DNA from: an uncultured Bacilli bacterium | Lineage (GTDB): Bacteria > Bacillota_I > Bacilli_A > RF39 > UBA660 | Length of the DNA stretch: 38,142 bases | Assembly (NCBI GenBank): GCA_944359015.1 | Contig: CALVSK010000005.1 | Coordinates: 1 to 38,142, forward strand | Direction: 5' to 3' | Made by a program: the position numbers and the translations under genes | Shown here: in pieces, positions 4,562 through 11,342 of the stretch | Layout: each line of letters opens with the position of its first letter | How positions within the stretch are numbered: the first letter of the stretch is position 1 | The notes under the pieces: generated by a model | Database searches by the model: none | Seen by the model: only the letters and a program-made list of their open reading frames with translations | Told to the model about the DNA's origin: nothing

Positions 4562-6506
4562 TATTTAATACATTTTTAATAGCTTTAACTGTTCCACCTA
4601 TACCTAATTTATCAACATTTATCGCTAAGTCATAATTTGTAAAATCTTTCCATTTACGATTTGTGTAATATTCGTAATGTTTTGCTCTATCTTTATCAAC
4701 TTTCTTTATATTTTTAATAGCTTCGTCTTTACTTAATCCATAATATTTTGTACATCTTTTAATTTTATTATCTAAATCACTATATAAATATATTTTATAA
4801 ACATTTTTATTATTTTCTAGTACATAATCTGCACATCTTCCTATAATTACACATGGTTCTTTAGATATCTTTTTAATAATTTCAGATTCTGTAATAAATA
4901 TATTATCATCATTATTATAAAAAATACTATAATTATTTTTTATTTGTTCATTAGCTTTGATATAACTTTCTGATAGTCCAGATTTTTCTGCGGTTAATTT
5001 TATTAATTCTTTATCATAAAATTTAATTTTTAATTCTTTAGCCAATAATTTACCTACGTATCTTCCACCAGAACCATATTCTCTAGATATTGTTATAACT
5101 AAATCTTTTGGTATATCATTTACTTCTAGTGCTACTTTATTATCATTAACCGTTATTTCTTTATGTTGCATTTTATTATCAATAAATAAAATGCTAAATG
5201 CAACAATAAAGGATATGACATCTGCAATAAGTGCTGCCCAAAGCATTCCAACAACACCATTCATACTTGCTAATATTATTAATGATGGAATAAATATTAT
5301 AATGTCTCTTAATAATGAAATAATCATTGATTTAAATGGTTTACCCATAGATTGCAAGTATATACTGCAGCTTTTAGTTATACATGTAAATATAATACCT
5401 GCTAAGTAAATACGAAAACACATTAATGCATATTCATTGTATAATGCACTCTCACTACCAAAAATATTAATAATATATTGTGGAAAAAATTGAAATATTA
5501 TAAATGCTATAATACCTATTATCGTATTTGTTGTTAAAATTAACTTAAAAGTTTTTTTAACTCTTTCAATATTTCCTGCTCCATAATTATATCCTATTAT
5601 TGGTTGTCCCCCAATAGATGTTCCAATAACTAATGCAATTACTATAGCAAAAACTTTCATTACAATCCCTACTACTGATAATGGGATATCTGCACCAAAT
5701 TTTGATAAAGTTCCATATTTAACTATCATATTATTTGCTACCGCTATTACTATTACAATTGATATTTGAGTAATAAAACTTGATATTCCTAACGTGCTAA
5801 TTTTTTTACAAATGTTTCTATCTAGTCTTAATGTGACTTTTGATAATTTTAATTTTTTTGGTTTAACAAAATATATTAAAGTAAAAATGCAAGATATTAT
5901 TTGTCCCACAATAGTTGCAATGGCGGCTCCTTTAACCTCTAAATCAAAAACAAAGATTGCTATTGGATCTAAAATTATATTTAATATTGCTCCAATTAAT
6001 GTTGCAAACATTGCATATTTTGGTGAACCGTCTGCTCTAATTATACCATTTAATCCTGATGTCAAAATATAAAATGGAATTCCCATTAATATTATTTGAA
6101 AATAATCTTTTGCATAAGTATATGACCCTTGTGTTACACCAAATATTTTTAATATTTGTTCTTGAAACGTAAAAGCAAGTAATGCTACTATTATAGAAAC
6201 AATTAACAATAAAACAATAGAATTTCCTACTCCTTTATTGGCATTTTTATAATCTTTTTTTCCTAGATAAAGACTAAAAATTGCTGATGCTCCATCGCCA
6301 ATAAGTAAAGCAAGTGCTAATGCAATTACTGTAAAAGGGTAGACTACATTCGTTGCTGCATTTCCTAAATAGCCAACCCCATTCCCAATAAATATTTAAT
6401 CAACTATGTTATATAACGCACTAACAAGCATAGAAATTATACATGGTATTGAAAAATTAATTAATAATTTTCCTATTTTTTCATTTCCTAAATCTAAATT
6501 TTTCAA
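4557..6506 (-). pseudogene. MATE efflux transporter fused to cytidylate-kinase-like domain, interrupted by a nonsense codon
   Basis: The full frame runs from a TTG at 6506 (AAGGAG 5 bases upstream) to 4557, about 650 codons. It starts MKNLDLGNEKIGKLLINFSI, typical of MATE Na+/drug antiporters, with about 12 membrane segments over the first 450 residues. The C-terminal 190 residues (from VITISREYGSGG, with IGRCADYVL) form a cytidylate-kinase-like P-loop domain; such MATE-kinase fusions are known in Bacillota. Codon 37 is TAA (6396-6398) where family members read VDQIFIG, so a single CAA-to-TAA change has cut the gene. Frame is kept on both sides. The longest open part is 4557-6209 (550 aa), which lacks the first membrane segments. 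It could be a fresh pseudogene, a sequencing or assembly error, or a readthrough site. Confidence 0.8.
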
Positions 6507-6639: not shown

Positions 6640-8073
6640 TTATTTTTTATTTTTTTTCTTTTTTGATTTTTTTTCTAATATATCATATGTTTCTTCTTCA
6701 TTGTTTTTTTCAGTCAATTCAATTATTTCATTTTTCTTATCTTCTTTTTTGATTTCAATGTTTTTTGTTTCTAACTTTTCTTCATTTTTTACTTTCTTCT
6801 TTTTCTTTTTGCGAGTACATAATAATATTATAAACATTAACACTAATATAGCACTAAAACCTATGATAATGTAAGAATATAGTTTATTTTGTTTTGTTAA
6901 TTTATTAATTATTTCATCATCATATTTTATAATACTTTGACTATCTTTGTCATAAGTAAAAAAACCTTCTTCACCTGTTTCAATATTTATTCCATAGATT
7001 ACCACAAATCTCGAAGATTTCGTTACATAAAAAGCATCATATTCTATTTCATTAATTGTAATTTTACCTTTTTCATATCCTTCTAAAATTTTGTCTGTTT
7101 CTTTTGGATATATCGTTAAATTACTTCCTTTAATTTCATTATAAATACTATATTTATTTGTTTCTTGATTGTATATATATAAATTAATATTTCCTTCGCT
7201 ATCTTTTAAACCAACTAATAAAATATTTGTATAATCATTTTTATAAGCGGGAATATCAAATTCATTTATTTTTACAGTTGTTTCTTGATATGCGTTCGCT
7301 GCTGGTAAATATTCTTTTATTTTTACTACAGTTAAATCTTTTCCATCTATTGTTACATTAATGGGATTGCTATCTTTTACTTCTACCGTTAAAGTATAAG
7401 TTTTTTCTGCTCCATTTTGGGCTCTTACTACTATTTCAAATGTATTTGTTCCTTGAGTAACTTCAAATGTTCCATCACCACTTACTGTTGCTGTAGAATC
7501 ATTTTTTGTTGCTTTTATAGTTACTTCTTTTGTATCTTCTGGAACTGTAACTGTATAATTTGTTACATCTTTAGAAAATTCTTCATTTAATTCAAACCCT
7601 TCGACAGATAAGCTTTTTAAATCATTATCTTTTGAATAGGTGGCTTCTAATTCTTCTTGTGTCATTATTTTTATTGTTTTACTACCAGCACTTAAACTCA
7701 TTTCACTCATGTCATCATAAGCAAATGCTTGATAACTAGCCATGCTTACTTTTGTACTACCTTTTTTTAATGTTTTAAATTTAAATGTATAACTTTTGCT
7801 AGTTATTCCTGATGACGAATTAACCATACTGATTCCACCGGCTTCACTGGTTGCACTAATTAATTGCAAATAATTTTTATCATAATTTAAGTCCATATCC
7901 CAACTACCTATTTTAGTGGAACTAGATAATTTTACTGTTATTGTTACAGTATTTCCAATTACGGCTTGAGATGTTCCAGTAATGCTTATTGACCCCGATG
8001 CAGCATTAACACTTAACGGAAATATTATTAAACAGATTAATAATGTTATTACTCCTTTTATTCTTTTTATCAT
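6640..8073 (-). CDS. Membrane-anchored cohesin-domain surface protein
   Basis: 477 residues. Signal peptide 1-24; a cohesin-type beta-sandwich at about 26-140 (GSISITG..., SWDMDLNYDKNYLQLISA, MASYQAFAYDD); a cadherin-like beta-sandwich at about 150-232 (LKSLSVEGFELNEEFSKDVTNY pattern); a unique 240-395 region; one membrane helix at about 399-420; and a highly charged Lys/Glu cytoplasmic tail of about 57 residues. The outward cohesin would bind a dockerin, and the gene just upstream in the same operon (10-bp gap) encodes one. The start has AAGGAGG 6 bases before ATG. Its likely job is to hold the glucosaminidase at the membrane surface. The domain calls are good; the partner choice is inferred from adjacency. 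Confidence 0.8.
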   Translation of the reverse strand: MIKRIKGVITLLICLIIFPLSVNAASGSISITGTSQAVIGNTVTITVKLSSSTKIGSWDMDLNYDKNYLQLISATSEAGGISMVNSSSGITSKSYTFKFKTLKKGSTKVSMASYQAFAYDDMSEMSLSAGSKTIKIMTQEELEATYSKDNDLKSLSVEGFELNEEFSKDVTNYTVTVPEDTKEVTIKATKNDSTATVSGDGTFEVTQGTNTFEIVVRAQNGAEKTYTLTVEVKDSNPINVTIDGKDLTVVKIKEYLPAANAYQETTVKINEFDIPAYKNDYTNILLVGLKDSEGNINLYIYNQETNKYSIYNEIKGSNLTIYPKETDKILEGYEKGKITINEIEYDAFYVTKSSRFVVIYGINIETGEEGFFTYDKDSQSIIKYDDEIINKLTKQNKLYSYIIIGFSAILVLMFIILLCTRKKKKKKVKNEEKLETKNIEIKKEDKKNEIIELTEKNNEEETYDILEKKSKKKKNKK

Positions 8074-8083
8074 TTATTCCTCC

Positions 8084-9823
8084 TTATTGAACTATTTTAT
8101 ATGTACCAAGTATATCTTTTTGAACTTGTAATAAATCTAAAGCATTGATTGTGCCATCTTCTGATGTATCTCCGGCTTCTTTATATACTCCACTTAAAGT
8201 ATATGTACCTAATATATATTTTTGGACTTGTAATAAATCTAAAGCATTTATTATTCCATCTCCTGATGTATCACCTTTAATTACTATTTGTAATGTTTCA
8301 CTTCCTGTTTTATTTGTAATTTTTACTTTCATACCAGTTGCTACTTTTCCACTAGTAATTTTATTACCATTCTTATCCATTATGTAAACATTATCATAAC
8401 CAGCAACAGATTCTAGCACACCTTTAACTGTTGAGATATCATTATCTACCGCTATTCCAAGAATATAACCGTTTTTATATTTATAACCACTTGATGTTAC
8501 TATAGTATTAATGGCTAAATCGCTTAAATTTGATTCAGGTTTTTCGCCCGTTCCACCACCACTGCTATTGTTTATAGTTGCATCCATTCCTGTATAAACT
8601 GGTATATAAAATACAAATGATTCATTTAATAAATTTGATTCACTATAAGATTTATAAGTAGATGATGATTCACTTGATGGCGCTGCTAAATTGGTTTGAA
8701 ATTGATGAATAAATTGATTACTTGCACTAGTTGGTACTACATTAAATTTTTGTAAATATGTAGTATATTGTCCTTTATTTATATAAGACGAAGATATAAA
8801 ATTTGCACCACCTTTTATTGCTTCGGTTAACCCATACCAGTTATTATCTTTAGCATATTTTAATCCACAATAAGTTACACCGTTTTCTGTAGCACACTCA
8901 TCACTAACTCCATAATTAAAAAAATTATAATATCCCTCAAAACCTGGATAGACTCCACTATATAAATTAAATAATGTCGTAGATGCTCCAAGTTCTTGCA
9001 ATGTTCTTGCTGCCAAAAATACTGGATTTGTATCAACTATTTTTCCAACATCATTAAAAATAATCGATAAATCATTATTTAAATTTAAATGATATTTATA
9101 AAATTCTGCTCCTTGTAATATTATTTTTATACTAGTTGGATAACTATTAGTTAAATTTGTGGAGTATTTTAAATATTCAAATTGAAATATGTATCTTTCA
9201 GACAAAAAATTTCTTGGGTCCATATAGTATGCTACCGCTTTTTGACTACCATTTTTCCAAGAACTGTCCCATCCATATGCATTATTACAAGTTCTATCCA
9301 TAAACTCTTCATTGCTCGTTTGAATATAACTTTTACCGCATACACTTTCTCTTTCTACTGCATAACTCCAGTCAACTTTTGTATCTAATGCAACAAATTG
9401 CCAATTTGGAAATTTTTCTTTTAAATTACATAATCCGCCCCAATAACTAGAAGGAAATCCTAAATTGCTCATCTCTATTTCACATGTAGTGGTTGGTGTA
9501 ACATCATCTGTACTATAACTTCTTATAACTTTAACATGGTCGCCGCAGACATAACCGACATCAACTCCATTATAATATATTTGATACCAATCACTATTAC
9601 ATCCATTATTTTGATTAGTATCAGGGTAAGTTCTATCCTCAACTAATAAATAGTATGACCCTAAATTAAGTGATGTTAATTTTTTATTTTGTGTTCCTGA
9701 GCCAGTTCTTACATTTGCACCTTGATCTAATATATAAGCTCTTGCTGTATAAGTAGATGCATATACGTTTTTAAAAAATAAAAAAGAAAATAAAATCATT
9801 ATAGTTAAAATAATTTTTTTCAT
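8084..9823 (-). CDS. Secreted SH3/glucosaminidase with C-terminal type I dockerin
   Basis: 579 residues: signal peptide 1-22; an SH3-like wall-binding domain at about 25-100; an N-acetylglucosaminidase domain of the GH73/LytG-like kind at about 190-365 (AVAYYMDPRNFL, ARTLQELGAS with a candidate catalytic Glu277, YGLTEAIKGGANFISSSYI); a Ser-rich linker; a small beta domain; and two dockerin repeats at about 517-579. Both dockerin loops have the calcium pattern GDTS-x-DG-x-IN-ALDLLQVQK. Predicted role: cleavage of peptidoglycan glycan strands while tethered to a cohesin. The next gene downstream encodes such a cohesin protein. It begins with ATG after AGGAGG and has a good promoter. Confidence 0.88.
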   Translation of the reverse strand: MKKIILTIMILFSFLFFKNVYASTYTARAYILDQGANVRTGSGTQNKKLTSLNLGSYYLLVEDRTYPDTNQNNGCNSDWYQIYYNGVDVGYVCGDHVKVIRSYSTDDVTPTTTCEIEMSNLGFPSSYWGGLCNLKEKFPNWQFVALDTKVDWSYAVERESVCGKSYIQTSNEEFMDRTCNNAYGWDSSWKNGSQKAVAYYMDPRNFLSERYIFQFEYLKYSTNLTNSYPTSIKIILQGAEFYKYHLNLNNDLSIIFNDVGKIVDTNPVFLAARTLQELGASTTLFNLYSGVYPGFEGYYNFFNYGVSDECATENGVTYCGLKYAKDNNWYGLTEAIKGGANFISSSYINKGQYTTYLQKFNVVPTSASNQFIHQFQTNLAAPSSESSSTYKSYSESNLLNESFVFYIPVYTGMDATINNSSGGGTGEKPESNLSDLAINTIVTSSGYKYKNGYILGIAVDNDISTVKGVLESVAGYDNVYIMDKNGNKITSGKVATGMKVKITNKTGSETLQIVIKGDTSGDGIINALDLLQVQKYILGTYTLSGVYKEAGDTSEDGTINALDLLQVQKDILGTYKIVQ

Positions 9824-9972: not shown

Positions 9973-10380
9973 ATGGATAAAACATTTGATAAAATTGATA
10001 TTATTTATATTATTTTAATTTCTATTTATTTGTTTGCTCTTTTTTTTGGAATTATGTGGATAATTTTAAGTAAATTAGAAAATCGTAAAAAAGGAACAAA
10101 TAACAATGATAAAGGCAATTTATCCACAAATAAAATTAAAAATATAACAAATAAAAAAGAAGGAACACCAATAAAAAATAGCAAAAAAGATACCACTAAG
10201 AAAATTAATAGTGTATCAACTAATAAAAATAAAAATGATTATTCTAAGAAAAAAACTACGCAAAATAAACAAAATAAAAACAATTCTGCTAGTAAATCTA
10301 ATGGTTATAAAAGTCCTACAAAAAAAAGAACTACTAAAAAGAAAAAAAATAATAAAAATAATAAAGCACGAAAAAAATAA
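9973..10380 (+). CDS. Small membrane protein with Lys/Asn-rich tail, function unknown
   Basis: 135 residues. One membrane helix at about 10-33 (IIYIILISIYLFALFFGIMWIIL) is followed by a low-complexity basic tail of about 100 residues, almost all Lys, Asn, Thr and Ser. A TATAAT lies about 25 bases upstream of the ATG; the ribosome site (GGTTAGG) is weak. No family recognised. The tail would bind nucleic acid or wall polymers by charge. It converges on the retron reverse transcriptase, sharing the terminator region, so it is the nearest gene to the retron, but on the opposite strand and with its own promoter. Confidence 0.6.
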   Translation: MDKTFDKIDIIYIILISIYLFALFFGIMWIILSKLENRKKGTNNNDKGNLSTNKIKNITNKKEGTPIKNSKKDTTKKINSVSTNKNKNDYSKKKTTQNKQNKNNSASKSNGYKSPTKKRTTKKKKNNKNNKARKK

Positions 10381-10391: not shown

Positions 10392-11342
10392 TTAAAAGTC
10401 TTTTATCAAATTAAAAATATATTTTTTATAATTTTCAAATTCTTTTGTTCTATTTATTTGTAAAACAAATAAAATTCTTCCATGTAATTGTTTTAAATAG
10501 CTATCTTCTTTGCCAACATAATTGATTTTATTTAAATGATTATTTAAGCCATATTTTTTTATATAAAATACTTCTTGTCTTATCTTTTTTCGATATTTTA
10601 TATTAATTTGCATTTTTTTATTAACTGTTATTCCAGTTACATTTTGATTTTGAGATTGATTAATTACTTTTGTCTTTTCATTATTTAATTCTAAGCCAAT
10701 TTCATATAACATTTTTCTTACCTTTTTTATTATTTTTCTTACATTCAAATCTCCAGAAAATGTTAAGTCATCAGAATATCTTGTATAACTAACCTCTTTT
10801 TCTTTGCACCAATAACCTAATTCTTCATCAAAATCTTTTAAAACTAAATTTGATATATAAGATGATGTTGGAGCACCTTGGATTAAATGTTCATCATATG
10901 TACATAAATGAGTTAATAACATTCCTACAGATTTAGGAAAATATTCAATTGGAAAGCAACTTTTATATACATTAAAAAATGTTATATTATCAAAGAAGTT
11001 CTTTATGTCCAATTTTAAAATCTTTTTTTTATTTATATGTTCTATGGCATTGTCTTTTAATGATATATTCTTATGATATGCTTTTGCATATTTTGATATT
11101 TGTTTATTATTTAATATATTATTTAATATATTTTTTTGGATTTCTTTTAATATTTTATTTGGAGCATATATCTTTCTAAAACCACCATTTTTCTTTTTTA
11201 TTTTATATATTTTATAATTATTTTTTATATTATTACTTATAGAATATAAAGTATTAATATATTTTTTATTATTTTTACATTTGAATAATTTAAGAGATAG
11301 TAAAAATTCATTACATTCATCTTTACCAATGTATTTCCACAT
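10392..11342 (-). CDS. Retron-type reverse transcriptase
   Basis: 316 residues, the usual size for a retron RT, with no maturase or HNH extension. The NAxxH motif reads NAIEH (98-102); RT block A is KLDIKNFFDNI (110-120, Asp112); QGAPTSSYISN is at 155-165; the catalytic box is YSDD (189-192); and the retron-specific VTG is at 235-237 in NVTGITVNKK. Together NAxxH and VTG separate retrons from group II intron RTs. The start ATG has AGGAGG 7 bases upstream. Directly upstream on the same strand is a foldable msr-msd-like RNA with its own promoter. Expected role: reverse transcription of msd into a branched RNA-DNA, usually as the sensor of an anti-phage system. No effector gene is fused or co-transcribed. 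Confidence 0.92.
   Translation of the reverse strand: MWKYIGKDECNEFLLSLKLFKCKNNKKYINTLYSISNNIKNNYKIYKIKKKNGGFRKIYAPNKILKEIQKNILNNILNNKQISKYAKAYHKNISLKDNAIEHINKKKILKLDIKNFFDNITFFNVYKSCFPIEYFPKSVGMLLTHLCTYDEHLIQGAPTSSYISNLVLKDFDEELGYWCKEKEVSYTRYSDDLTFSGDLNVRKIIKKVRKMLYEIGLELNNEKTKVINQSQNQNVTGITVNKKMQINIKYRKKIRQEVFYIKKYGLNNHLNKINYVGKEDSYLKQLHGRILFVLQINRTKEFENYKKYIFNLIKDF

Follow-up and report, generated by a model that had tools for sequence, protein, structure and literature searches.

A dockerin-bearing glucosaminidase and a cohesin-bearing membrane protein encoded side by side in uncultured Bacilli: a probable one-to-one tether for a peptidoglycan hydrolase

Introduction

Gram-positive cells need tight spatial control of their wall-cutting enzymes and, to our knowledge, most known solutions use transmembrane segments, sortase or attachment to polymers of the wall. 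Cohesin and dockerin form a protein clip that is best known from plant-digesting cellulosomes, and pairs outside cellulosomes are already known as well. Here we compare such systems with a two-gene locus of an uncultured Bacilli bacterium, in which a secreted glucosaminidase ending in a dockerin (gene B) is directly followed by a membrane anchor that starts with a cohesin (gene A). The type I pairs of cellulosomes (C. thermocellum 1ohz, C. cellulolyticum 2vn5/2vn6, C. acetobutylicum 6kgc) share with this locus the dockerin with two calcium loops, the symmetry of its repeats and the cohesin fold (Z 12.6-13.6), but the pair described here includes no plant-polysaccharide enzyme, its anchor is a transmembrane protein, and there is one cohesin and one dockerin per genome with no tandem scaffoldin. 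The closest solved folds are the cohesin-like modules of C. perfringens glycoside hydrolases (2jh2, 2vo8 and 2w1n, Z 13.7-14.1), whose use is also non-cellulosomal. In that species the cohesins are carried by hydrolases of host glycans, whereas here the cohesin is on a non-enzymatic membrane anchor and the putative client is a peptidoglycan hydrolase.

In terms of function, the closest analogue would be the SagB-SpdC system of S. aureus, whose glucosaminidase is held at the membrane and cleaves nascent glycan strands (PMC10581084). Both systems would combine a membrane-held glucosaminidase with a membrane partner, and the NCBIfam SagB model matches B (3e-12, under the model's own cut-off). However, SagB is itself membrane-associated, SpdC is a CAAX-protease-like multi-pass protein, and neither cohesin nor dockerin is part of that system; the partner of B is a single-pass cohesin protein. 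In Ruminococcus champanellensis, as far as the citing passages in PMC6403190 and PMC6780208 describe it, peptidoglycan hydrolases (a lysozyme and dockerin-bearing wall hydrolases) are tied to a cohesin-dockerin assembly. According to the same passages that assembly is a multi-scaffoldin cellulosome with a GH25 within the scaffoldin ScaK, unlike the dedicated two-gene membrane pair found here. The mucinolysome of Limousia (PMC12997984) is another cohesin-dockerin system of gut Firmicutes and includes a single-cohesin, sortase-type anchor, cSca5, but it employs many mucin enzymes and tandem cohesin scaffoldins on an external substrate. The same 2026 survey counted 4,333 gut metagenome-assembled genomes with both domains and followed the mucin degraders alone. 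Among the open-access papers that we searched, none describes a dockerin-bearing glucosaminidase together with a membrane cohesin, or a dedicated membrane pair that serves a peptidoglycan hydrolase one-to-one.

Organization of the locus

The window, i.e. the whole stretch of DNA that was analysed, comprises 38,142 nt of contig CALVSK010000005.1 (GCA_944359015.1; Bacillota_I; Bacilli_A; RF39; UBA660). The host assembly has 0.98 Mb in 56 contigs and is 90% complete. Both genes, and hence all features given below, lie on the minus strand, and the coordinates and strands of the two reading frames in the first-pass annotation were correct. That annotation had described a secreted glucosaminidase ending in a two-loop dockerin, followed by a membrane-anchored protein starting with a cohesin; the domain matches, the signal peptide and the transmembrane helix presented in this section bear out both descriptions.

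Gene B (8084..9823, 579 aa) is one of 90 orthologous loci and begins with a predicted signal peptide (about residues 1-22, 9758..9823); all 84 complete homologues have the N-terminal hydrophobic segment. It is followed by an SH3_3-like, putative wall-binding domain (residues 24-105, 9509..9754) that is supported by the family profile and scores 22.4 bits with Pfam SH3_3, slightly below the cut-off of 27. The glucosaminidase domain (residues 182-425, 8549..9280) matches the solved glucosaminidases of AtlE (4pi7) and Atl with E about 4e-9 to 5e-9, as well as that of a C. perfringens autolysin. PF01832, the Pfam family, gives no match to B, and the domain therefore belongs to a divergent subfamily. 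The presumed catalytic residue is E277 (codon 8993-8995), which is 97% conserved among the homologues; judged by homology and this conserved glutamate, B is a peptidoglycan glucosaminidase of the autolysin/SagB/AtlE type. The same genome encodes a second glucosaminidase with an N-terminal transmembrane helix of its own, therefore a SagB-like role would not be exclusive to B.

Towards the C-terminus B carries an X-like module (residues 431-505, 8309..8533), which in the homologue at locus L063 is confidently modelled as a domain of its own, and then the dockerin (residues 516-572, 8108..8278) with the near-identical repeats DTSGDGIINALDLLQVQKYILGT and DTSEDGTINALDLLQVQKDILGT. The dockerin matches PF00404 over positions 1-57 of 57 (E 3.4e-13, 50-54 bits, cut-off 22.9), and both of its calcium loops are intact with the ligands D1/S3/D5/D12 in each. 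With a strict pattern for the ligands (D1, N/D/S3, D5 and D12 in two loops) two intact loops are found in 89 of 117 dockerin homologues; one loop is degenerate at some loci, the second loop in some homologues. B has no C-terminal transmembrane segment, and hydropathy gives the same picture in the homologues, with one transmembrane helix in A.

Gene A (6640..8073, 477 aa) starts 10 bp after B, behind an AGGAGG-like ribosome site. Its signal peptide (about residues 1-24, 8002..8073) has a counterpart in 87 of 88 homologues. The cohesin (residues 29-140, 7654..7989) matches PF00963 with E 6e-7 and 30-34 bits (30.2 in the domain search, cut-off 24.1), and the family cohesin profile reaches the cellulosomal cohesins in the PDB (6kgc, 3.7e-6). 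The homologous pair of a close relative at L063 was modelled as a fusion read in frame through the TAA stop (mean pLDDT 94.7, pTM 0.65). Its cohesin superimposes on 2jh2 with Z 14.1 and an rmsd of 2.3 Å over 114 residues and on 1ohz with Z 12.6, and cohesins make up most of the best-scoring structures; as judged from this model, the domain has a cohesin fold. Behind the cohesin follow a cadherin-like beta-sandwich (residues 141-236, 7366..7653; PF12733, 1e-11), an uncharacterised juxtamembrane domain (residues 237-397, 6883..7365), a transmembrane helix (about residues 402-420, 6814..6870) that is kept in nearly all homologues, and a basic, K/E-rich cytoplasmic tail (6643..6813).

The juxtamembrane domain is found in 95 homologues, with a mean column identity of 43% in 40 diverse rows, and is modelled as two tandem beta units (pLDDT 95.6). 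It has no family in Pfam or NCBIfam, nor a PDB match at E<=0.001 or Z>=5 (Foldseek/VIA), an absence that does not by itself establish a new fold. The conserved domain is a target for structural and functional work.

Conservation of the gene pair

We sampled 145 genomes from 144 genera of the host's family; 109 of them contain a dockerin and 81 a cohesin at the level of Pfam. About 100 dockerin loci were taken, family profiles were built from them and the neighbouring genes were tested. All 90 glucosaminidase-dockerin genes (89 distinct loci, L062 and L109 being the same) are directly followed by a cohesin anchor gene on the same strand, and at each of the 90 the anchor consists of a cohesin, a cadherin-like domain, the same juxtamembrane domain and a transmembrane helix. 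The gap between the two genes has a median of 10 bp and lies between -12 and 25 in 93 of 96 cases. Since both domains score above the curated cut-offs and the pair recurs at 90 of 90 loci, chance is excluded. There is one exception to the association of the two domains, in genome G066 (L229, 2828-6766), where a cohesin anchor stands beside a six-SH3 glucosaminidase without a recognisable dockerin.

The juxtamembrane domain was also searched for in 392 genomes of the phylum, and it occurs in 32 of them, all from the host's family and two families of the same class (f9 and f14). In the latter two most of the genes with this domain are directly downstream of a dockerin gene, and the enzyme that bears the dockerin belongs, as a rule, to a different glucosaminidase subfamily (PF01832, E 1e-12 to 1e-16). 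The other dockerin clients in these families are GH25 enzymes (at L205, another at L201), an Amidase_2 (L214) and a protein with a metallo-beta-lactamase fold (L208). The same anchor thus occurs with varied enzymes and is therefore the constant part, the clients being mostly peptidoglycan hydrolases. A few proteins, e.g. at L216 and L217, lack a cohesin but combine the cadherin-like with the juxtamembrane domain. One genome of these families (G244) has two separate anchor-dockerin pairs.

Two kinds of wall-polymer genes recur near the cassette: LCP-family genes at 34 of 96 loci and genes for MraY/TagO-like undecaprenyl-phosphate glycosyltransferases, named by eye from sequence, at 19 of 96. 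Their presence is in line with a role of the cassette in building the cell's own wall.

Co-divergence of dockerin and cohesin

To ask whether the two domains recognise each other, we compared pairwise domain distances over 88 loci using partial correlations. The distances between dockerins follow those between the cohesins encoded directly downstream (rho 0.61, partial 0.58, p 0.001), while the partial correlations of the dockerin with the other domains are 0.00 (glucosaminidase), 0.06 (cadherin-like) and -0.03 (juxtamembrane). The dockerin-cohesin correlation is 0.45 in the subset of loci with less than 45% identity, and 0.37 within the main recognition class alone, where that of the glucosaminidase is weaker (0.19). 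At the level of residues, 30 pairs of dockerin and cohesin columns covary above the maximum of the shuffled data, as compared to 2 pairs for the glucosaminidase; neither the cadherin-like nor the juxtamembrane domain gives any such pair.

In the top covarying pairs the two dockerin repeats take part with corresponding positions (L530/L564, Q534/Q568, K535/K569, L538/L572). On the cohesin side they involve the strand WDMDLNY (W58, M60, Y64) as well as S92, F97 and F99; examples are L530/L564 with W58, Q534/Q568 with M60, and K535/K569 with S92/L71. The recognition dipeptides are identical in the two repeats at 52 of 66 loci (shuffle mean 5.5), an identity that is favoured by a dual binding mode. 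Such a mode is reportedly used by the cohesin-dockerin pair of C. cellulolyticum (2vn5/2vn6). By eye, at least 4 matched recognition classes can be distinguished; in one of them the dockerin motif DLLxxQK goes with the cohesin motif GSWxF..YD, in another DYVxIKN goes with AGxF..SSN. In a tree-based test with independent contrasts the class switches agree in 3.8 of 7 cases and none is opposite, a test that is underpowered and stays below significance.

As a caveat, the segments for dockerin and cohesin are direct neighbours on the DNA, so co-transfer as one piece could also give a correlation; the domains that flank this segment do not share the co-divergence signal. Fold, co-divergence and covariation agree in indicating that the dockerin of B and the cohesin of A probably recognise each other. 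As far as the sequences tell, both halves of the clip appear to evolve together.

Proposed mechanism and alternative explanations

We consider it quite probable that a one-to-one, calcium-type cohesin-dockerin pair tethers the B glucosaminidase to the outer face of the membrane, where it likely trims or releases glycan strands in a SagB-like manner. B and A would be produced from a bicistronic cassette. B would be exported, would bind the wall via its SH3 domain and would present a dockerin whose binding, we infer, may depend on calcium. A would be exported as a type I membrane protein with the cohesin outermost on a stalk of two further domains. One-to-one binding of dockerin and cohesin would then hold the glucosaminidase non-covalently between membrane and wall, at the site where nascent glycan strands are expected to emerge, and if active there the enzyme would most likely trim or release these strands, by analogy to SagB held by SpdC. 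A membrane-side tether of the hydrolase had been put forward in the first-pass annotation together with a possible signalling or septal role of the tail of A; the tether is well supported in silico by the obligate adjacency, the fold, the specific co-divergence, the conserved signal peptide and transmembrane helix of the anchor and the lack of such a helix in the enzyme, while the proposed role of the tail finds no such support (see below).

One alternative, which we regard as unlikely, is a small cellulosome-like scaffold in which the membrane cohesin docks several dockerin exo-enzymes, the glucosaminidase being one client. Some genomes of the family do have 3-12 dockerin matches, including dockerin proteins with M6-peptidase and papain-family domains, the anchors of the two other families are paired with a GH25, Amidase_2 or metallo-beta-lactamase-fold dockerin enzyme, and at L201 the gene of a GH25-dockerin protein is near a glucosaminidase pair. 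However, the anchor has no tandem cohesins and 64 of the 109 dockerin-bearing genomes of the family give only one dockerin match. In the host, a search of the whole assembly (90% complete) returned one dockerin and one cohesin, both at the B-A locus, in place of the scaffoldin with several cohesins and the several dockerin enzymes of a cellulosome; this genome-wide count, proposed as a check in the first-pass annotation, leaves the dockerin of B as the sole one found. M6-peptidase-like dockerin proteins at L099, L130 and L138 are about 4 kb from a same-strand cohesin anchor and are possible extra clients there.

To the same low degree we can envisage an external substrate, i.e. scavenging by means of a glucosaminidase that breaks down peptidoglycan fragments of other gut bacteria, while the anchor retains the products close to the cell. 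Related uncultured orders are predicted to be short of precursor-synthesis steps and to need scavenged muropeptides (PMC10868615), and the lysozyme in the cellulosome of R. champanellensis, as mentioned in PMC6403190 and PMC6780208, points in the same direction. On the other hand, the membrane anchor and its two-domain stalk would place the enzyme under the wall and not outside of it, and the LCP and glycosyltransferase-like neighbours described above point to assembly of the cell's own wall.

It is improbable that the anchor is primarily a regulator or sensor, acting by tail signalling or septal recruitment, with tethering as a secondary function. A regulator would fit the strong conservation of the uncharacterised juxtamembrane domain and a short tail motif around Y-[DNKR]-[ILM]-[LFM]-[EDK], which occurs at 10 of 88 loci including the one in the window. 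The tails themselves are 7-173 aa long (median 43.5), 37% K/R and unconserved among the homologues in both length and sequence, and no signalling domain was found in them. Because the tails range from 7 to 173 aa, and with the motif at so few loci, our data do not support signalling or septal recruitment as a general property, and a basic stop-transfer tail is enough for most anchors. The idea that the two domains are relics that no longer bind and persist as spacers can be nearly discarded: some second calcium loops are degenerate and the dockerin is missing in G066, but the specific co-divergence, the covariation and the repeat symmetry point to continuing selection on an interface.

We also considered the clip as a replacement for a lost sortase. 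A loss of sortases is reported for the related orders RFN20 and ML615J-28 (PMC10868615); this idea was dropped, as a sortase is present in the host genome and in 129 of the 145 family genomes.

Returning to the one-to-one tether, a reversible, calcium-type clip appears to be used in this way across an uncultured family (about 144 genera) and two other families. In a wider and more tentative reading, one to which we give somewhat less than even weight, private and mutually distinct cohesin-dockerin pairs may form a class of envelope tethers for peptidoglycan hydrolases in gut Bacilli, with recognition surfaces that were co-switched many times and a juxtamembrane domain that shapes or senses the wall. 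If this is true, the cohesin-dockerin module would have a major use outside cellulosomes in the tethering of hydrolases. The co-diverged pairs, with their at least 4 recognition classes, could supply protein engineering with orthogonal cohesin-dockerin pairs and offer a natural test of interface co-evolution.

Neighbouring genes in the window

Upstream of B, a divergent gene on the plus strand (9973-10380) encodes a 135-aa protein with one transmembrane segment and a lysine/asparagine-rich tail; similar proteins are found near the cassette in 5 loci. The minus-strand gene at 10392-11342 encodes a reverse transcriptase that matches the retron-type PADLOC model RT_Ec107-like with 411 bits and the NCBIfam model for the retron St85 reverse transcriptase with 216.9 bits, under its cut-off of 235; no Rfam retron RNA reaches the gathering score within the window. 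On the other side of the cassette, a minus-strand gene (4557 to about 6506) codes for a fusion of a MATE transporter with a cytidylate-kinase-like domain. It is interrupted by an in-frame TAA at about 6395-6397 (inside NIVD*IFIG), and the list of open reading frames therefore starts this gene late; the stop may be a nonsense mutation, a sequencing error or the mark of a pseudogene.
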